DNA from: Niabella soli DSM 19437
GTDB lineage: Bacteria > Bacteroidota > Bacteroidia > Chitinophagales > Chitinophagaceae
Direction: 5' to 3'
DNA length: 64,000 bases
Assembly: GCF_000243115.2 (NCBI RefSeq)
Contig: NZ_CP007035.1
Location: 2,418,001 to 2,482,000 of the forward strand
Within the stretch, counting starts at the first letter, position 1; each line of letters begins with the position of its first letter. The notes beneath the pieces are model-generated. The model saw nothing but the letters and a program-made list of their open reading frames with translations. It was not told the DNA's origin and searched no databases. Below, one piece after another: positions 23,291-36,458 of this stretch. The translations under genes and the position numbers were made by a program.

Positions 23291-27094
<3,804 letters not shown>

Positions 27095-27650: not shown

Positions 27651-28577
27651 ATGAAAAAGACACTGATCAAAGAGTACCTCCAATTTACAAAAAAGGAGCA
27701 GTTGGGCCTATTGGCATTGCTGACGATCATCCTTGTTTTCACGATCCTCCCCTTTATCAATCCCAGGTCAAAAACGATCGAAAAAGATCCGTTAGTTGAA
27801 AATGCTGTTGCAGAACTAAAGAATAAAACATCAAAGAACAATGATAACACAGGTAATTCTTACACCCGGGATGACCGTTACAATCGCTCTTTTTCCATTG
27901 CCGCGTCCAAAGGAAGGCTGTTTAATTTTGACCCGAATACCATTGACGAAGCTGGCTGGAAAGAATTGGGGTTAAGAGAACGCACCATTCGTACCATACT
28001 AAATTATCGCAGTAAAGGCGGGCGCTTTCGTAAACCCGATGATCTTCAGAAAATTTATGGGCTGCATACCGATGAATTTGAGCGGCTGAGGCCTTACATA
28101 GTTATCCGTGGTCAGCAGTTCAGTAGTCAGTCGCGACCGTTCCAAAAGCCGGATGCGCCCTCCTATCTGCCGCGTAAGGCTATCACTCCGATTGACATCA
28201 ATACCGCTGATACCTCCGCCTATATTGCGTTGCCGGGCATCGGTAGCAAACTGGCCGCAAGGATTGTTAATTTCCGGAACAAACTGGGCGGCTTTTACAG
28301 CATTGAACAGGTGGGCGAAACCTATGGGGTGCCTCCTGAAACTTTTGAAAGTATAAAACCCTATTTGCAGACCGGTGCCGGGGATATAAAAAAACTGGAT
28401 ATCAATGCGGCTACTTATGCGGAACTAAACGCCCATCCCTACATCAGCGGTAAGCTGGCGTATCTGATCGTTAAACAGCGCAAAACAACGCCCCTTGCAT
28501 CTGCCGAAGCATTGAAAGAGCTGGTTGCCCAAACCAATGATTCGTTCGAAAAAGTGGCTCCGTATATCAGCTTTTAA
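27651..28577 (+). CDS. Membrane-anchored helix-hairpin-helix DNA-binding protein (ComEA-like)
   Basis: A 308-residue protein. Residues 17-37 form one membrane segment (EQLGLLALLTIILVFTILPF), followed by a charged linker and three helix-hairpin-helix units: about residues 85-145 (FDPNTIDEAGWKELGL...), 180-240 (DINTADTSAYIALPGIGSKL...) and 250-305 (DINAATYAELNAHPYISGKL...). The middle unit keeps the canonical PGIG turn. This organisation is that of ComEA-type proteins, which bind incoming DNA at the cell envelope. It lies beside the Wadjet operon on the same strand, but a 321-base gap separates them. Confidence 0.85.
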   Translation: MKKTLIKEYLQFTKKEQLGLLALLTIILVFTILPFINPRSKTIEKDPLVENAVAELKNKTSKNNDNTGNSYTRDDRYNRSFSIAASKGRLFNFDPNTIDEAGWKELGLRERTIRTILNYRSKGGRFRKPDDLQKIYGLHTDEFERLRPYIVIRGQQFSSQSRPFQKPDAPSYLPRKAITPIDINTADTSAYIALPGIGSKLAARIVNFRNKLGGFYSIEQVGETYGVPPETFESIKPYLQTGAGDIKKLDINAATYAELNAHPYISGKLAYLIVKQRKTTPLASAEALKELVAQTNDSFEKVAPYISF

Positions 28578-28898
28578 TTCTATGTCGTTTACTCAAGCTT
28601 TCTCACTTAAAGGACGAAGTGTTTACAATTGTGATTGATTACCTGCAGAGAAGATAAAGTGAATGGTAAGTAGTGAATGGTGAATGGATTGTTCACGTTT
28701 AAAAAGACTGGGATTTTTTCGATTTAACCCCCATTCAATTTAAAATCTGTGCAGATCTGTGCTTTCTGTGAGAAAAAATCAGGATCAGCAAAATCAGCGG
28801 GCTAATAATCCACAAAAAGACCACATCGTTTTTTACTGATTTCCTTTTATAAACAGAATCCTGTATTTTGCGCGCCCCCTTTTTAAGGGTTGCTTATA
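28578..28898. other. Gap between the helix-hairpin-helix gene and jetA
   Basis: No gene seen. It contains repeated 'gaatggtaagtagtgaatggtgaatgg' units (about 28660-28690) and a stretch with the wording 'atctgtgcagatctgtgc ... aatcagcggg' (about 28745-28802), a type of dispersed sequence often seen between Bacteroidota genes. Just before jetA is tattttgcgcg (28864-28874), one base short of a TAnnTTTG box. Confidence 0.4.
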
Positions 28899-30368
28899 AT
28901 GACGAAAGAGAATATTGGCACACTGATACAACTCTCCCCTGCCCTGCAAATGCTCCGGCTGCGGAATGCAGGCTGGGTATTGCCTTTTTTATTTGAAGCC
29001 TTTAAAGAAAGCCGGAAAATGGTGCTCCGCGAAGACGAATTGATCACAAAACTTTCGGAAACGCTGAGTCTGATTGCAGACGGCACGGAGGACCTGGAAG
29101 AAGCCCGCATCGAATTTGGAGAAGATGAGGAAAGCCGCAGCCGCAAATACCTGGTTAACTGGGTACAAAAACGGATCCTTCAGGACTTCCCCGATACGGA
29201 AGGACATACCAACTACCAACTGAGCGCTTACACCGAAAAAGTATTTCAATGGATGCAAAACCTCCAGGCCGGTCAGCACCATGTAGGTACGGAAAGCCGG
29301 TTTAAAATGCTGTTTAGTTCGCTGCGCGATATGGTGGAAAATACCGAAGATGATCGTGAAAAGAAATTACAGCAGCTTAAAGACCGCAAAGCCGAACTGG
29401 ATAAAGAAATTAAAGCGCTGGAAATGGGCGTGGCGCCACAGCGCTACAACAATGCCCAGGTACAGGAACGGCTCGACTTATTTATCAAACTCTGTTATGA
29501 GCTGATCGGTGATTTTCGGGAGGTGGAAGACAATTTTAAACAGATCCACCGCAATATTGTAGAACAGCACACAAAGGCGGAACAAAACAAAGGCGCCATC
29601 CTGGGCTTTGCCTTTGAATCCTATGATGCCCTGCGGGGCAGCAACCAGGGGAAAAGTTTTTATGCGTTCTGGGATTTCCTCATCTCACGCAGCGGGCAGG
29701 AAAACTGGCGCCAGCTTACCGAGCAATTATTACAACTTTTACAAGACCGCGAACTGGAAGCCGACACTGATTTCCTGCGCAATATCAAATCCTTTTTGCT
29801 GGAACAGGGAAAAGCCGTGTACGAAGCCAATGATAAGATGGCGGAAAAGCTCAGTCGCATTATCAGTGAAAAAGAAATCGCCCGGCATCGCAGGCTGCGG
29901 CAACAGATCAGCAATATCAAAGAATTGATCTTTGACCTCATGGAGGACGAAACAGTTACCGCCGGCATCCCGGTAACGGACCCCGTTGAGATAAAAATTG
30001 CAATGGACCGCAAGCTGGTGCTGGAGCAAAAGACAATCGCGGGCACGCTGAAACAACCAATTGCAGGCATTGAAAAAATTGAGGATGTGGACCGCTTCAA
30101 CCGGCTACTCAACACCAGCTTTATTGACAAAAAGATACTGTGGAGGAAAGTAGAAGAAGTATTGCAAAAAAAACAAACCGCTACGCTGAAGGAAATTATC
30201 GAGACCACCTCTCTGGACAATGGCCTGGCAGAGGTGATCAGCTATTACAGCTTCCTTCGCGAAAAAGCGAAACACGTGCAGGTGCTGGCTGATACCACAG
30301 AACTGATTCCTATTGACAAAGCAGCCACCAAATTCGTGGAAGTGCCTTACTTGTTATTCAGTAAATAA
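28899..30368 (+). CDS. jetA: Wadjet type I defence protein JetA (DUF3375, kleisin-like)
   Basis: First gene of a four-gene SMC-type plasmid-defence operon. JetA is the MukF-like kleisin subunit that bridges the JetC motor. The protein (489 residues) shows the JetA/DUF3375 look: an N-terminal winged-helix region (LIQLSPALQMLRLRNAGWVLPFL), a long charged helical middle (EKKLQQLKDRKAELDKEIKALE), and a C-terminal winged-helix part ending PYLLFSK. The ATG at 28899 was chosen over a TTG at 28890. It ends 7 bases before jetB. Assignment rests on gene order, sizes and the JetC/JetD motifs. Confidence 0.9.
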   Translation: MTKENIGTLIQLSPALQMLRLRNAGWVLPFLFEAFKESRKMVLREDELITKLSETLSLIADGTEDLEEARIEFGEDEESRSRKYLVNWVQKRILQDFPDTEGHTNYQLSAYTEKVFQWMQNLQAGQHHVGTESRFKMLFSSLRDMVENTEDDREKKLQQLKDRKAELDKEIKALEMGVAPQRYNNAQVQERLDLFIKLCYELIGDFREVEDNFKQIHRNIVEQHTKAEQNKGAILGFAFESYDALRGSNQGKSFYAFWDFLISRSGQENWRQLTEQLLQLLQDRELEADTDFLRNIKSFLLEQGKAVYEANDKMAEKLSRIISEKEIARHRRLRQQISNIKELIFDLMEDETVTAGIPVTDPVEIKIAMDRKLVLEQKTIAGTLKQPIAGIEKIEDVDRFNRLLNTSFIDKKILWRKVEEVLQKKQTATLKEIIETTSLDNGLAEVISYYSFLREKAKHVQVLADTTELIPIDKAATKFVEVPYLLFSK

Positions 30369-30375
30369 AGAAAAA

Positions 30376-30966
30376 ATGTCAGAAAAAATATATGCTTTCA
30401 CCCCGGTGTTTGTGAAGCTTTTAAAAGGTCCTGTGGAGTATCTTGAAAAAAGCAACTGGGAAAAGCTGTTACAATATAAAACAGAATTAACCGCCTTTTT
30501 GCAGCAATTAGGGTTAGCACTGGTACTGGATGAGCAGGACGGTTATGCCTATATTAAACACAATACTGCGGAAGAAGATACCACCAGTGTAAGTTGGGTG
30601 CAGCGCCGGTCTTTAACCTACGATGAAAGTGTGCTCCTGGTATTGCTGCGCGATATGATGGCAGAATTTGAAGTGGGTGAAGCCACACACCGCGAGCTGG
30701 TAAAAAAGCGCCGGGAAATAAAAGAATATGCCGAACTGTTCTTTCGTGAAAATGCCAGCCGGGTAAAAATGCTGAAAGATATCGACCGGCTGATCGACCG
30801 TGCCGAAGAAAACGGGTTCCTGGAACAGGCCGAAAATCATGACGTGGCCGATGAACAAAAATTCCGCATCCGGAAAATCATCAAGGCAAGAGTGGACAGT
30901 GAAATTTTAGAGGATTTTAAAAACCAACTAACAGCACATGCAGCTAAGCGTATTCAGCACGGATAA
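30376..30966 (+). CDS. jetB: Wadjet type I defence protein JetB (DUF4194, MukE-like)
   Basis: A 196-residue winged-helix protein that binds the JetA kleisin. Features are the N-terminal YAFTPVFVKLLKGPVEYLE, the central SWVQRRSLTYDESVLLVLLR and the 'RLIDRAEENGFLEQAE' helix-turn-helix, followed by KFRIRKIIKARVDSEILEDF, all in keeping with JetB. The ATG at 30376 follows the jetA stop by 7 bases; a longer reading would start inside jetA. Its last 29 bases overlap the start of jetC. Confidence 0.9.
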   Translation: MSEKIYAFTPVFVKLLKGPVEYLEKSNWEKLLQYKTELTAFLQQLGLALVLDEQDGYAYIKHNTAEEDTTSVSWVQRRSLTYDESVLLVLLRDMMAEFEVGEATHRELVKKRREIKEYAELFFRENASRVKMLKDIDRLIDRAEENGFLEQAENHDVADEQKFRIRKIIKARVDSEILEDFKNQLTAHAAKRIQHG

Positions 30967-33900
30967 TGAAAAAAGCGGATTCCGGTTACAATACATGGAA
31001 GTATTTAACTGGGGAACTTTCGACGATAAAATTCATACCATTCACCCTGACGGGGAAACCAGTTTATTAACCGGCGCTAACGGAAGTGGCAAAACCACTT
31101 TTGTGGATGCGCTGCTGACCCTCATCGTTCCCGAAAAAAGATACCGCTTTTACAACCAAAGCAGTGGCAGCGAAAAAAAAGGCGACCGCACAGAAGAGAC
31201 CTATGTCCTGGGCGGATACGGTACCATCAATAGTGAAACCGGTGTAACCCGGAGCCTGTACCTGCGCGAAAAGAAAGAAGAAGCTTATAGCATCCTCCTC
31301 GTGAACTTCACGAACGAAGACCTGCAGGAAGTAACCCTTTTCCAGGTAAGGTATTTCAACAATGGTGAGTTAAAACGCCAATTTGGTGTGGCGCGTAAGA
31401 GCCTGCACATCGAATCCGATTTTAAACCCTTTGATCTGGGCAATGCCTGGAAAAAGCGCATTGACAAACAGTACAACCAGGGCAGTCGTAAACAAGTAGA
31501 CTGGTTTGATTCAGCCAGCAAATATGCACAGCGCCTGGTAGAAGTACTGGGCATGCAAAGCTTACAGGCCTTAACACTATTTAACCAAACCGTGGGCATT
31601 AAAGTGCTCGGCAATCTGGATGATTTTATCCGCACCCATATGCTGGAGCCCCGGGATATGGAAACAAAATTCCAGGAACTGAAAAAACACCTGGGAACCC
31701 TGCTGGATGCGCAACGGAATATTGAAAAGGCAGAAGAACAGATCCGGTTGCTGCAACCGATCCAGGAACATTATGCCGCATTTGAAAATCTTAAAACCGA
31801 ACAGGAACAACTCCGCCAATCCATTCATACAGCAACCATTTGGAAAAGTTTTACACAGGCCGCACTGCTGCAAAACGCGCTGGAGCAGGATAACGCAGCT
31901 ATTAAAGAAACAGAAAAACAGGTGGCATTCGTAAAACTGGAAATTGACCGGTTACATGAATCCGAACGTGTAACCCGCAATCAGATCGATCAAAACAAAG
32001 CCGGCCAACGCCTTAAACAATTAGAGCAGGAGCTGCAAAACTTGCACGCGCGTAAAAAAACGACCGAAAGCAATTTGGTGCTTTTTACAAACTGGTGCGC
32101 CACTTTACATTTTGAAGAAAAAACAGCACCGGATGAAGAGGCTTACAAACGCATTTTAAAAGAAATAAGTCGCGCCGGAATGCGGCTAAGCCGGGAACAG
32201 CGGCTCAACGAAGATGATGAATTTGATGCAAAGACACAGCTACAAAAATCGAACGAAGAAAAAACAAAAATTGAAACAGAGCTAAATATATTATTGCACA
32301 GCAAAAGCAATATTCCCGCGCACCTCATTCGGTTACGTCAGGACCTCTGCCAGGCGCTAAAGCTGGACGCAGACGATTTGCCCTTTGCAGGCGAATTAGT
32401 GCAGGTTAAAGCCGGAGAACAAATGTGGCAGCCGGCATTGGAAAAGCTGCTGCATTCATTTTCCCTGCGCCTGTTGGTGCCGGATAAATACTACAAAAAA
32501 GTTACCCGCTATATTAACCAAACCTCTTTGGGTACGCGGCTTGTTTACTACCATGTAAAAGAGAGCATGGCTGTTTTGGCCGAAGACCAAACTGTTTTTT
32601 ATAAATTAGATTTCCACCCGGATCATCCATTGTCAAACTGGTTGCAGCAGCAGATCATTCAGCAGTTTGCACACGTTTGCCTGGAAGATGAAAAAACAAT
32701 TGAACGCTATCAAAAAGCAATTACCCTAAATGGGTTGATCAAAAACAGGGACCGCCATGAAAAAGATGACCGGCCCGGCGGCAGCGATGCGAGCCGCTAC
32801 GTAATGGGCTGGAATAACGAGCACAAAAAAGAAGCGCTAATTACACGTAGACATGCGCTGACAACCATTATAAACCAATCTGCTGAAATCATTGAGCGCG
32901 CCCAAAAAAAAGCAGATCGTTTACAAAAACAATTCAACGCGTTAAGCCGCCTGCAGGAACATGAAGGCTTTGAAACCATTGATGTGGAGCAGCTTCAACG
33001 GCAAATACACCAAACCGAAAGCCAGGTTAAACAATTGAGTGAAAGTAACGACCAGCTAAAAGAACTTACACGGCAGTTGGAACAGTTGCTGCAGGAAAAA
33101 ACTGCAATGGATGTTAAACGGGAAAAGCTAACCATTGAAAAAACCACGCTGCAAAATCAGGTAGATGCCATGTTGCAGCGCCAGGCGGCGCTTGAGCCTC
33201 TTTTAGAACTTATTACACCTAATGATAAAGACCAGTTACTTCAGTTTCAGCAACAGCATCATGCAACATTGAGCGCTGTAACCCTGCATAACATTGAAGG
33301 TGTTTATTTCAATTTTAAAGAACAACTGGAGGCAGCAGCGACTGCCGCCCAAACACGGCTTTTCAAAGAAGAAAATAAGCTAAACAAAGCCATCACCCAG
33401 ATCAGGAACCCCGCCCCCGCTATATTACAACGGTTTCCGGGCTGGAATGGGGATGTGCAGCATTTACCGGAAGACGCGGCGTATGCCGGTGAGTTTTTGG
33501 AATGGTTAAAAAAATTAGAAATAGAAAATCTTCCCAAATACCGGAAAGATTTTGAAAACTTCATCAATGATACCATTACCTACAAAATTGGCGGATTAAA
33601 TGAAGAAATGGAAAAATGGGAACGGGAGATCAATAACAGCGTTGATAAGCTGAACCAGTCGCTGGGCCACATCAATTTCAACCGGCTGCCCGACACTTAT
33701 ATTCAGTTGGGCAAACGAAAAGTACAGGACAGCAATGTACATGCTTTTCGCAATGCGTTGTTAGAAGCTTTACCCCAGGCGGCCAACTGGCAGCAAAGCA
33801 GCTTTGAAGAAAAGGCCATTCATTTTCGCGAAAAAGTGCAGCCCCTGATCGACAACCTGGACGAAAGCGAAACCTATCGCGCCCGCGTAATGGATGTGCG

Positions 33901-34318
33901 TAATTGGTTCGAGTTCTGGGCCGATGAAAAATACCGCAATACCAATGAGCTCAAAAAGACCTACCGGCAGATGGGACAGCTTTCCGGGGGAGAAAAGGCG
34001 CAACTTACCTACACTATCTTGTGCAGCGCTATTGCTTACCAGTTTGGCATCACCCGGGAGGGGAAGAACAGCCGCAGCCTGCGTTTCATTGCTGTGGATG
34101 AAAGCTTCAGCAACCAGGACGAGGATAAAGCTACTTACCTGATGGAGCTTTGCAAACAGTTACATTTGCAGTTGCTGGTAGTAACACCTAGCGATAAAAT
34201 ACAAATTGTACAGGATTACATCGCCCATGTGCACCTGGCACAGCGGGTAAACAACCGGCATAGTATCATGTACAATATGACCATTAAAGAATTGCAGCAA
34301 CAAATGAAAAAAGAATGA
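30938..34318 (+). CDS. jetC: Wadjet type I SMC-like ATPase JetC (MukB-like)
   Basis: Loop-extruding motor of the Wadjet complex, 1126 residues. The N-terminal ATPase half has the Walker A motif GANGSGKTT (residues 46-54). A long coiled-coil region occupies roughly residues 230-450 and 640-940, with a globular hinge near 480-600. The C-terminal half has the signature GQLSGGEKAQL (about residue 1012) and the Walker B segment LRFIAVDESFSNQDEDKA (about 1048). All motor motifs look intact. It overlaps jetB by 29 bases and jetD by 4 bases (ATGA). Confidence 0.96.
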   Translation: MQLSVFSTDNEKSGFRLQYMEVFNWGTFDDKIHTIHPDGETSLLTGANGSGKTTFVDALLTLIVPEKRYRFYNQSSGSEKKGDRTEETYVLGGYGTINSETGVTRSLYLREKKEEAYSILLVNFTNEDLQEVTLFQVRYFNNGELKRQFGVARKSLHIESDFKPFDLGNAWKKRIDKQYNQGSRKQVDWFDSASKYAQRLVEVLGMQSLQALTLFNQTVGIKVLGNLDDFIRTHMLEPRDMETKFQELKKHLGTLLDAQRNIEKAEEQIRLLQPIQEHYAAFENLKTEQEQLRQSIHTATIWKSFTQAALLQNALEQDNAAIKETEKQVAFVKLEIDRLHESERVTRNQIDQNKAGQRLKQLEQELQNLHARKKTTESNLVLFTNWCATLHFEEKTAPDEEAYKRILKEISRAGMRLSREQRLNEDDEFDAKTQLQKSNEEKTKIETELNILLHSKSNIPAHLIRLRQDLCQALKLDADDLPFAGELVQVKAGEQMWQPALEKLLHSFSLRLLVPDKYYKKVTRYINQTSLGTRLVYYHVKESMAVLAEDQTVFYKLDFHPDHPLSNWLQQQIIQQFAHVCLEDEKTIERYQKAITLNGLIKNRDRHEKDDRPGGSDASRYVMGWNNEHKKEALITRRHALTTIINQSAEIIERAQKKADRLQKQFNALSRLQEHEGFETIDVEQLQRQIHQTESQVKQLSESNDQLKELTRQLEQLLQEKTAMDVKREKLTIEKTTLQNQVDAMLQRQAALEPLLELITPNDKDQLLQFQQQHHATLSAVTLHNIEGVYFNFKEQLEAAATAAQTRLFKEENKLNKAITQIRNPAPAILQRFPGWNGDVQHLPEDAAYAGEFLEWLKKLEIENLPKYRKDFENFINDTITYKIGGLNEEMEKWEREINNSVDKLNQSLGHINFNRLPDTYIQLGKRKVQDSNVHAFRNALLEALPQAANWQQSSFEEKAIHFREKVQPLIDNLDESETYRARVMDVRNWFEFWADEKYRNTNELKKTYRQMGQLSGGEKAQLTYTILCSAIAYQFGITREGKNSRSLRFIAVDESFSNQDEDKATYLMELCKQLHLQLLVVTPSDKIQIVQDYIAHVHLAQRVNNRHSIMYNMTIKELQQQMKKE

Positions 34319-35463
34319 TACCCGCATTTGCAAAACAGTTGAACGGCCACTACCGTTCTTATTTAAAGAACCTCGTTGCGGTAGCTCCATTTTCCCCGAT
34401 TGTATTAAGAGGGGAAAAAATGAAACCCCAAACAACTGTTGAGCTGCACCAGGCGATCAGCGCCTTTCAGCAATTTGAGAAAAAGCCAGGCGTCCCGGGC
34501 TGGGAAATAGAATGGGAATCCTGGTTCAGCAGGAAACTGGGCGCCCAGCAATGGCCATCCCGCATATTGATCAATAGCGAAGAAGATTATCTGTTCCTTC
34601 TGAAGAAAGAAACCGAAGTTGCTGCTTTTAAAACCCAATTACAACGGCTGCTGCATTGGCAACCCGCCATTCAACAGCTATTGCTCTCGCATCCCGAAAT
34701 GGTGTTACAGTTTTCTCTGGTATGGGAACAATTGATGGCAACAACAGATTATTTGTTAAACCATGAGGTGCGCGGACTGTACCTCCGCAGCATTGCAGTT
34801 CCGGCCCACACGAAATTTATCGGAGAAAATAAGAGCACGATCATCCGGCTGCTCAACTGTATCGCTCCCGATCGTTTTCCGGCCGGTGATGCTATCGAAG
34901 CAACGCTGCAATTAAAAACAAAGCCTGCTCTGTACCTGATGCGCTGGCTCGACCCTGATCTGGCAAGCCAATACACACCCAATATGGAATTTTTCGCCAT
35001 TCCCATTGATGTTCTTTCAAAAAACAATTGGAATGTAGCGGAAATATGGCTGGTGGAGAATGAAACCAATCTTTACCTGCTGCCCCGTCGCAAAGAGGCG
35101 CTTGCCGTTTTCAGCCGGGGATACGCGATGGAAGGGTTAAAAGAAATTCCGCTTTTTCGCCAAACGAGATTATTTTATTGGGGCGATCTGGATGAGGATG
35201 GCTTTATAATGCTGAATCGTATGCGCTGGCACTATCCCAAACTGAAAAGTGTATTCATGGGCGAGAGCACCCTGATCAATCATGCCGCTGAATTTGACCG
35301 GCAGCCGGCAAATTACAAGACCGCTGCTAATAGCCTGGACCTTTTAACACCTACAGAAAAAGCGGCCTTTAATATTCTTAAGCACCACAATGGCCGCCTG
35401 GAACAGGAAAGAATCCGGCAGGATTATATTTGGAAGAAATTGAGCAGATCTGAACTTGGATGA
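34315..35463 (+). CDS. jetD: Wadjet type I nuclease JetD (DUF3322-DUF2220, Toprim)
   Basis: DNA-cleaving subunit that cuts plasmids trapped by JetABC. The 382-residue protein has an N-terminal DUF3322-like arm and a C-terminal Toprim fold with the metal-binding acidic cluster YWGDLDEDGFIMLNRMR (D291, D293 and D295 by count). An acidic position in the earlier part of the fold (LYLLPRRKEALAVFSRGY region) precedes it as expected. The start ATG overlaps the jetC stop (ATGA). No damage is visible, so the four-gene system looks complete and likely active. The operon has no recognisable terminator; REP-like palindromes follow. Confidence 0.93.
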   Translation: MIPAFAKQLNGHYRSYLKNLVAVAPFSPIVLRGEKMKPQTTVELHQAISAFQQFEKKPGVPGWEIEWESWFSRKLGAQQWPSRILINSEEDYLFLLKKETEVAAFKTQLQRLLHWQPAIQQLLLSHPEMVLQFSLVWEQLMATTDYLLNHEVRGLYLRSIAVPAHTKFIGENKSTIIRLLNCIAPDRFPAGDAIEATLQLKTKPALYLMRWLDPDLASQYTPNMEFFAIPIDVLSKNNWNVAEIWLVENETNLYLLPRRKEALAVFSRGYAMEGLKEIPLFRQTRLFYWGDLDEDGFIMLNRMRWHYPKLKSVFMGESTLINHAAEFDRQPANYKTAANSLDLLTPTEKAAFNILKHHNGRLEQERIRQDYIWKKLSRSELG

Positions 35464-35515
35464 TAATATTCCTGTGTCAATGTTATAAAACCGAAGAAGA
35501 GAAGATTATATCGCA

Positions 35516-35990
35516 CTCCATACAACGGGTAGCCACTACGTGGCACGTTCAACCACCGCGTTCACTTTCTAAAAATGGGTAATGCCCACGGCATTCACGG
35601 GCGAAATTGCCAATCTCCCCCCGGTGAGCAATGTCTTTAAATCAGGGCGTTGTCCGCTCCATTTGGAGCAACGTGTTTATAGCACTGTTAAAAATGAGGG
35701 TTTGGCTCCATAGGAGCCCCGTATCTACGCGGCGTCCTAACGGAGCCGGTTTCTCAGGTCGCACCATTCTACAAACACATGGCTCCTTTGGAGCCAAATC
35801 GCTGCCGCATTGAGGCAATACCAACTAAACTCAAAAGAAGATGCCAGTGTTCTTTTAATGCCTAATTAGTATAAAATCTAAAAGGTCAGCCCCCTTTTCC
35901 AATCTTGTTCCAGAGGAACGAACCCTTTGTAGCCGCATAGCGGCGCATTTGATCCGGTGTGCCGTAGGTACACCCCTTTATGCAGGCATA
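35516..35990. repeat. Cluster of REP-like palindromes between jetD and rplL
   Basis: At least nine short palindromes are spaced over 475 bases: gccactacgtggc (35532-35544), aatgcccacggcatt (35581-35595), gctccatttggagc (35656-35669), ggctccataggagcc (35704-35718), tggctcctttggagcca (35780-35796), gttccagaggaac (35907-35919), gccgcatagcggc (35932-35944), ggtgt...acacc (35956-35974) and tatgcaggcata (35980-35991). Several are followed by a short conserved tail of the type tttgtag or tttatag. This is the look of REP/BIME elements moved by RAYT (Y1) transposases; no transposase gene is in the window. The rest of 35464-36083 holds no gene. Confidence 0.7.
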
Positions 35991-36031
35991 AGAATAATTT
36001 TGCCGGCACTTCACAAAAAGATTTCCACAAT

Positions 36032-36061
36032 AAAAAAAGCAATCCTTTCGGATTGCCTTTT
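36032..36061 (-). terminator. Rho-independent terminator of rplKAJL
   Basis: On the minus strand gcaatcc pairs with ggattgc around a 4-base loop and is followed by seven T residues, 22 bases after the rplL stop. It ends the ribosomal operon before rpoB, which is normally cotranscribed. Confidence 0.9.
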
Positions 36062-36083: not shown

Positions 36084-36458
36084 TTAAGCTACCTCAACTT
36101 CAGCGCCTGCTTCTTTCAGTTTAGCAGCGATGTCTTCAGCTTCAGCTTTAGATACACCTTCTTTAACTGGTTTCGGAGCACCGTCAACTAATTCTTTAGC
36201 TTCTTTCAGACCTAAGCCAGTTAAGTCTTTAACGATCTTAACAACGTTCAGTTTAGAAGCACCTGCACTTTTCAGGATTACATCAAATGCAGTTTTTTCT
36301 TCAGCTGCGGCTGCACCACCGTCGCCACCACCAGCTACTACTACTGCTGCTGCAGCAGGCTCAATACCATATTCAGATTTTAAGAAATCTGCTAATTCCT
36401 GTACTTCTTTTACAGTTAAACCTACCAGGTTTTCTGCTAATGCTTTAATATCTGCCAT
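36084..36458 (-). CDS. rplL: 50S ribosomal protein L7/L12
   Basis: Stalk protein of the large subunit that recruits translation GTPases. The 124 residues show the N-terminal dimerisation part ([21 protein letters not shown]), an Ala/Gly-rich hinge ([20 protein letters not shown]), and the C-terminal domain with [20 protein letters not shown] and [21 protein letters not shown]. It follows rplJ on the minus strand with a 112-base gap. A clean terminator (36032-36061) follows; rpoB does not. Confidence 0.98.

Follow-up and report, generated by a model that had tools for sequence, protein, structure and literature searches.

Between the genes rplL and rpoB of Niabella soli DSM 19437 (Bacteroidota; Chitinophagaceae) lie four consecutive genes that resemble jetA, jetB, jetC, and jetD of the Wadjet defence systems, which raises the question how such an operon came to occupy this place and what becomes of it in relatives that carry jetA, jetB, and jetC without jetD. 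The genes are found at positions 28899-35463 of the stretch of 64,000 nucleotides analysed here (contig NZ_CP007035.1, positions 2,418,001 to 2,482,000), which is called the window in the following. In published descriptions of Wadjet, JetABC is the sensor, which extrudes DNA loops, and the cleavage of circular DNA falls to JetD (PMC10586767, PMC10123090, PMC10512200). The best explanation overall, in which we place high confidence, is that the window carries a complete type I Wadjet in a variable genomic slot, and that it belongs to a lineage which has repeatedly lost jetD while JetABC was kept under selection.

The coordinates of the open reading frames (ORFs) agree with the layout given by an earlier sequence-only reading of this DNA, with a gap of 7 bases between jetA and jetB and overlaps of 29 bases between jetB and jetC and of 4 bases between jetC and jetD, and gene order and overlaps fit a single jetA-jetB-jetC-jetD operon predicted from sequence (Table 1). 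The start of jetA was set at the ATG at 28899; a TTG upstream at 28890 is likewise open. The search with the PADLOC Wadjet profiles, which that reading had proposed, returned the type I model as the top match for each of the four subunits (JetA1, JetB1, JetC1, JetD1), and DUF3375, DUF4194, DUF3322, and JetD_C all lie above their Pfam cut-offs. The motifs that had been pointed out in JetC and JetD were recovered as well: JetC contains the Walker A motif GANGSGKTT at 46, the signature LSGGE at 1015, and the Walker B motif FIAVDE at ~1050, while the acidic cluster of the JetD Toprim domain comprises VENE at 247 (hence E248) and GDLDEDG at 290, LEQER standing at 362, with E248 aligning with the mutated site of the chain named JetD(E248A), 8q72. 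The jetD product aligns with two chains of the PDB, MksG 8b7f (3.2e-18), which we take to be the protein of Corynebacterium glutamicum, and JetD 8q72 (1.8e-9). No second jetC besides the window copy was found in the N. soli genome. These features identify 28899-35463 as a complete type I Wadjet (JetABCD) of N. soli, an ordinary and probably working one. It is extremely improbable that the operon encodes instead a housekeeping MukBEF or condensin and no Wadjet at all; reviews describe JetABC as structurally MukBEF-like, whereas the type I PADLOC models match with values down to E=0 and the MukB equivalog model, with its cut-off of 699 bits, scores 18.3, so that the MukBEF hits named beforehand as a refutation of JetABCD did not appear. 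Moreover, ScpA of Smc-ScpAB is already present in the genomes (23 of 23 checked), and the window carries the nuclease JetD, which also sets it apart from the nuclease-free MksBEF.

In the relatives the picture is different with respect to jetD. JetC relatives were identified in 42 of 195 Chitinophagaceae genomes (G123 with a weak short match), and 25 genomes, including that of the window, carry the window's kind of JetC with 51-77% identity to the window JetC; for the other 24 the surroundings were fetched. In eight of the 25 jetD lies beside jetC (the window, G028 with one ORF between, G084, G109, G180, G015, G126, and G002). One further genome of the same genus, G119 (L201), contains a related jetD, separated by ~73 kb from the closer end of its jetABC, and no second JetA was found in it; G119 is best described as a putative unlinked or scattered Wadjet. 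JetD of G036 adjoins a second, distant JetC, and in G023 JetD lies on another contig from the window-kind JetC and apparently belongs to that genome's second set. Searched genome-wide, JetD_C is absent from 14 of the 25 genomes and the N-terminal JetD domain DUF3322 from all 14 of these, and these relatives thereby show the lack of JetD/MksG that characterizes MksBEF. When the wider order was surveyed for genomes with JetA over the cut-off, 26 of the 40 that belong to the Chitinophagaceae proved to have JetD (many of these 40 coincide with genomes of the preceding count), as did 20 of the 22 that belong elsewhere in the order; the two lacking it are 82% and 78% complete. Scanning of genome contigs for named relatives yielded 79 loci; six of them come from other Niabella (pedocola, drilacis, aurantiaca, defluvii, BIN26, BIN29), and in none of the six does jetD adjoin jetC, the pedocola contig stopping 0.76 kb past jetC. 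In three loci (L126, L157, L169) jetD lies ~0.76-1.6 kb from jetC, as if drifting from the operon, and in L157 a RibD-like gene is located between the two.

How this patchy distribution arose was analysed with a tree of JetABC comprising 86 rows, from which 20 duplicates and the loci L116, L177, L178, L188, and L190 (frameshifted, truncated, or without jetA/jetB) were dropped; L155 and L163, in which jetD is cut by contig ends, were scored as jetD-bearing and excluded from the JetD tree. Of the 69 loci in the JetABC clade of the window, 52 lack a jetD adjacent to jetC. Six more rows stand next to this clade, four with jetD and two without, and the outgroup (11 rows from Flavobacteriaceae, Cyclobacteriaceae, and other groups) carries jetD throughout. 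Two clades, one of 14 Chitinophaga-type rows and one of eight Niastella/Longitalea/C. costaii rows, are wholly jetD-less. The starred branches of the tree force at least 15 changes of state, and a count that allows no regain gives 23 losses of jetD, two of them outside the window's clade; this is a quick tree in which some long branches meet, and the counts are approximate. The lineage thus appears to have shed its nuclease repeatedly, about 20 times if jetD was never regained. The JetD tree groups the unlinked JetD of G119 with L126, L157, and L169 (98/93) to the exclusion of the window, as does the JetABC tree; within the trio of L loci the two trees disagree on a weak branch. Since the branching of JetD close to the window is consistent with that of JetABC and the distances of JetD and JetABC are correlated (r = 0.87 for 15 rows, with none of 2000 permutations as high), the history of jetD near the window is most simply described as inheritance plus loss. 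Three of eight pairs of jetD-bearing and jetD-less loci that were compared for downstream collinearity show how the gene is missing: jetD is absent between collinear flanks in L129 vs L173 (2.8 kb downstream at 89%) and in L101 vs L165 (66%), and in L153 vs L154 ~3.5 kb of other DNA replaces it, with a collinear flank beyond. The opposite scenario, an ancestrally nuclease-free JetABC that gained jetD many times, is quite unlikely. Counting state changes on a tree does not separate gain from loss, 18 maximal jetD clades stand beside 23 maximal jetD-less clades, and tblastn with JetD up to 4 kb past jetC detected a remnant at just one of the 52 jetD-less loci; against a gain speak the presence of jetD throughout the outgroup, the JetD distances that track those of JetABC, and the one remnant itself.

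This remnant is found in L124, a locus of the sister metagenome-assembled genome (MAG) Niabella sp. BIN26, the RpoB of which is 99.5% identical to that of the window (443 residues held), the RplL 100% identical, and the ComEA-like gene 85% identical. L124 carries jetABC at the same junction site, and jetD is deleted to a 3' remnant of ~100 bp: what follows the jetC stop is the final ~100 bases of jetD and then the end of rplL. JetA and JetB are 95-97% identical between the two, the JetC ends come close to this level, and the ratios of nonsynonymous to synonymous substitution rates (dN/dS) are 0.040 for jetA, 0.025 for jetB, and 0.110 for jetC. Over jetA, jetB, and both ends of JetC, dS is 0.4-1.2 and dN 0.00-0.04, whereas for JetC residues ~280-870 (window 31775-33547), taken to be the arms and hinge, dN amounts to 0.17-0.56 and dS is mostly saturated. 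Because synonymous change is saturated in this region, the comparison points to an exchange of the JetC middle module in either the window or the L124 lineage; a close donor was not found among the few relatives compared. The jet operon is no strain-specific arrival, because L124 has jetABC at the same site, and most likely its entry into the junction preceded the split between N. soli and its sister. The earlier proposal of a defence insertion that is recent, specific to the strain, and set into a junction conserved elsewhere is therefore very unlikely. It would agree with an N. soli genome lacking any other jetC and with the 43 long junctions from relatives without jet genes, but it is contradicted by the shared placement in L124 together with the synonymous divergence given above, and by a junction that is variable across the family.

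The jetD-less operons do not look like remains of a defence system. In 12 pairs in which both sides lack an adjacent jetD (some pairs share a member), dN/dS of jetA, jetB, and jetC ranges from 0.005 to 0.086, and it ranges from 0.027 to 0.049 in three jetD-bearing pairs, in two of which jetD shows values of 0.09-0.11 (for the third, dS is not computable). jetABC without jetD is hence under purifying selection. In addition, all 52 jetD-less rows have Walker A and the signature, and 50 of them have Walker B, the two misses apparently reflecting a motif search anchored on an earlier SGGE string. As 14 Chitinophaga-type loci share a downstream ORF of 118-129 residues that is weakly cupin-like, below the Pfam cut-off, jetABC seems to keep one address in these loci. 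All three observations oppose the explanation that jetD-less operons are decaying, functionless leftovers, which is unlikely; in its favour stands Niabella defluvii (L177), where jetA, jetB, and jetC are frameshifted. The frameshifts in L177 may represent true decay or a noisy assembly.

A different effector, encoded nearby or elsewhere, could stand in for JetD in the jetD-less genomes, and we consider this rather doubtful. Unlinked partners do exist, as shown by the distant jetD of G119, and an ORF of 235-253 residues follows jetC in seven Flavitalea/Puia-type loci, one of which was tested and gave no Pfam match. However, no neighbour cluster is common enough to replace JetD across lineages among the 18 largest clusters around jetD-less loci, which were the ones considered: those of at least seven jetD-less loci are confined to single lineages, and those mixing lineages comprise at most six loci. 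Ten neighbours that were scanned are metabolic, glycosyltransferase, or unknown genes, and both JetD Pfam domains are missing genome-wide in 14 of 14 genomes.

Several observations weigh against repeated nuclease loss with a retained, JetD-independent JetABC. With a remnant at one locus, the preference for loss over gain rests elsewhere on trees and flanks, and in five of the eight pairs no collinear downstream flank was found near jetC; L124 itself is a MAG contig, and two of the 52 jetD-less loci (L122, L141) hold <0.8 kb beyond jetC. Much of the JetD tree within the clade is poorly resolved, and L115 and L118, which are placed outside the window's clade, also have no jetD, so that the loss is not clade-specific. 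A decay of the surface on which JetD docks was looked for by column contrasts and at the JetB N-terminus, the site of a JetD contact according to a review (PMC10586767), and no clear loss was seen. Twelve columns are conserved only with JetD vs two the other way (17 vs 52 rows, uncorrected for kinship), a contrast too weak to be relied on, and the JetB N-terminus looks alike with and without jetD. As there is no clear loss of the docking surface, a partner overlooked by the two JetD Pfam models could still serve some of the jetD-less complexes.

Table 1. Features at the jet operon and its flanks, in window coordinates.
Feature	Position	Strand	Evidence
jetA, kleisin (DUF3375)	28899..30368	+	PADLOC JetA1 5.3e-193; Pfam PF11855 2.5e-83
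jetB, KITE subunit (DUF4194 / MksE-like)	30376..30966	+	PADLOC JetB1 1.2e-48; Pfam PF13835 7e-38
jetC, structural maintenance of chromosomes (SMC) ATPase	30938..34318	+	PADLOC JetC1 E=0, 1126 bits; PDB JetC 8dk2 9.3e-50
jetD, Toprim nuclease	34315..35463	+	PADLOC JetD1 3.2e-88; Pfam JetD_C 6.7e-36, DUF3322 1.3e-26
jetD 3' end surviving as remnant in L124	35369..35468 (L124 9390-9489)	+	81% identical; blastn, tblastn
rpoB, left flank	23291..27094	-	TIGR02013 1840 bits
ComEA-like helix-hairpin-helix gene, divergent from rpoB	27651..28577	+	Pfam HHH_3 3.4e-37
Uncalled stretch with dispersed repeats	35464..36038		41 matching places in own genome
Hairpin with T tail, intrinsic-terminator-like	36039..36056	scored on +	just past rplL stop; consensus match only
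rplL, right flank	36084..36458	-	TIGR00855 5.5e-36

The site at which the operon lies had been regarded as one of the most conserved gene junctions in bacteria, which does not hold for the Chitinophagaceae. When rpoB and rplL were searched in the 195 genomes, 126 had both positions among the matches listed, and in 69 of these 126 rplL lies upstream of rpoB within 25 kb, with gaps from 0.17 to 21.6 kb (<500 bp in 23, 0.5-1.5 kb in 16, 1.5-5 kb in 14, and 5-25 kb in 16 genomes). In 48 of the 126 the two genes are on different contigs, and as this class includes assembly breakage the gap lengths were read from the 69 arranged genomes alone. In the remaining nine, rplL and rpoB are on the same contig yet far apart or on opposite strands, and the classical ribosomal-protein/RNA-polymerase cluster is therefore broken in part of the family.

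The sequence-only reading had placed the operon correctly between rplL and rpoB on the opposite strand and had overlooked the ComEA-like gene between jetA and rpoB. In the window, jetABCD occupies a slot between two convergent gene ends, 3' of the ComEA-like gene and before rplL. Junctions were fetched from relatives, 43 with gaps between ~1 and 17 kb (L031-L073), two with larger gaps, and 14 short ones. The ComEA-like gene adjoins rpoB on the opposite strand in 22 of the 43 long junctions (L031-L049, L052, L068, L070), and in 12 of these 22 the stretch from its 3' end to rplL holds an extra ORF, at the position taken by jetABCD in the window. The ComEA-like gene is the commoner resident of the junction, and where it separates rplL from rpoB, rpoBC is presumably transcribed from a promoter of its own. 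No jet genes were found in the 60 junction loci fetched from relatives. Among the other genes that occupy the junction there are LacI regulators, GH92, SusC/SusD-like proteins, glycosyltransferases, asparagine synthase, and unknown proteins. PADLOC models were run on 64 of 99 ORFs (at least 70 residues, ComEA excluded) from 26 of the 43 loci, leaving out two junctions of >19 kb, and eight models matched (PDC-S05 three times, mad3, AriA, mad8, PDC-M43B, and mad1), each in one ORF of the 64. A defence-like gene thus occurs at the junction now and then. As no PADLOC family matched more than one scanned ORF, the site is a general cargo slot and no defence island, and a defence hotspot, which was considered, was rejected in view of the mixed cargo.

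Borders of a mobile element were considered, and the flanks show dispersed repeats only, with no search aimed at integrases made. The repeats of the uncalled stretch, which lie within 35464-36020, occur at 41 N. soli places including itself (40 of 65 candidates scored) and derive mainly from 35523-35595, 35650-35801, and 35903-35979. L124 holds a near-identical copy of the hairpin behind rplL. An origin of the operon from a plasmid was considered and rejected, as positions 28899-30899 gave no blastn match among 72,556 plasmid records.

Comparison with known systems places the window operon in type I Wadjet (JetABCD; EptABCD, MksBEFG), with which it shares gene order, the four subunits, the type I models, and the ATPase and Toprim motifs, and from which it differs by its location between rplL and rpoB and by its membership in a JetABC clade with jetD usually absent. 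MukBEF has the plan of SMC, kleisin, and KITE in common with it, the MukB equivalog remaining unmatched. The MksBEFG system of C. glutamicum acts in plasmid defence according to the available text (PMC10123090), which discusses no nuclease loss, and it is distant in sequence; the MksG chain 8b7f aligns with the window JetD as given above. The jetD-less relatives have the composition of the MksBEF of Pseudomonas aeruginosa, in which kleisin, KITE, and SMC are likewise kept, the nuclease is gone, and ScpA of Smc-ScpAB is present, and which takes part in chromosome segregation according to the parts available of two sources (PMC7485682; review PMC10586767). In contrast to P. aeruginosa, the Chitinophagaceae lose jetD repeatedly within one family, with one deletion remnant and nuclease-bearing sisters, and the window itself retains JetD.

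By analogy to the family, the window JetABC would form a dimer of loop-extruding SMC motors. If the DNA is a small closed circle, these would run into each other and trigger the cut by JetD, by which a plasmid would be destroyed. The N. soli chromosome has 4,697,343 bp with 0 extrachromosomal elements, as stated in the accessible part of its description (PMC3569382), and a plasmid-free N. soli fits a Wadjet, although it proves nothing. In the jetD-less relatives, JetABC would most likely act as a nuclease-free accessory SMC motor that works MksBEF-like beside Smc-ScpAB. That the Wadjet of Chitinophagaceae was many times turned into a nuclease-free SMC motor for the cell's own use, with a JetABC function independent of JetD, is a proposal for which we see the chances as evenly balanced. 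Such use may be chromosome folding or another DNA-handling task, as proposed for jetD-less JetABC. How Wadjet arose and how it is related to other SMC complexes is described as unresolved in a review (PMC10586767). Among the papers listed from the openly licensed literature, judged by title and the start of the abstract, no report of jetD loss in Bacteroidota was found.

These findings caution that jetA, jetB, and jetC alone should not be taken as plasmid defence. Within a single family the step of nuclease loss appears again and again, in one instance with a deletion remnant whose sister operon is intact, and the proposed route from Wadjet to MksBEF becomes testable. N. soli and its sister MAG, with the same locus with and without jetD, would, if this is true, represent a natural before-and-after pair for an MksBEF-type origin, and ordinary soil bacteria offer a way to test the role of JetABC without JetD and whether a motor of defence can turn into one of the chromosome.

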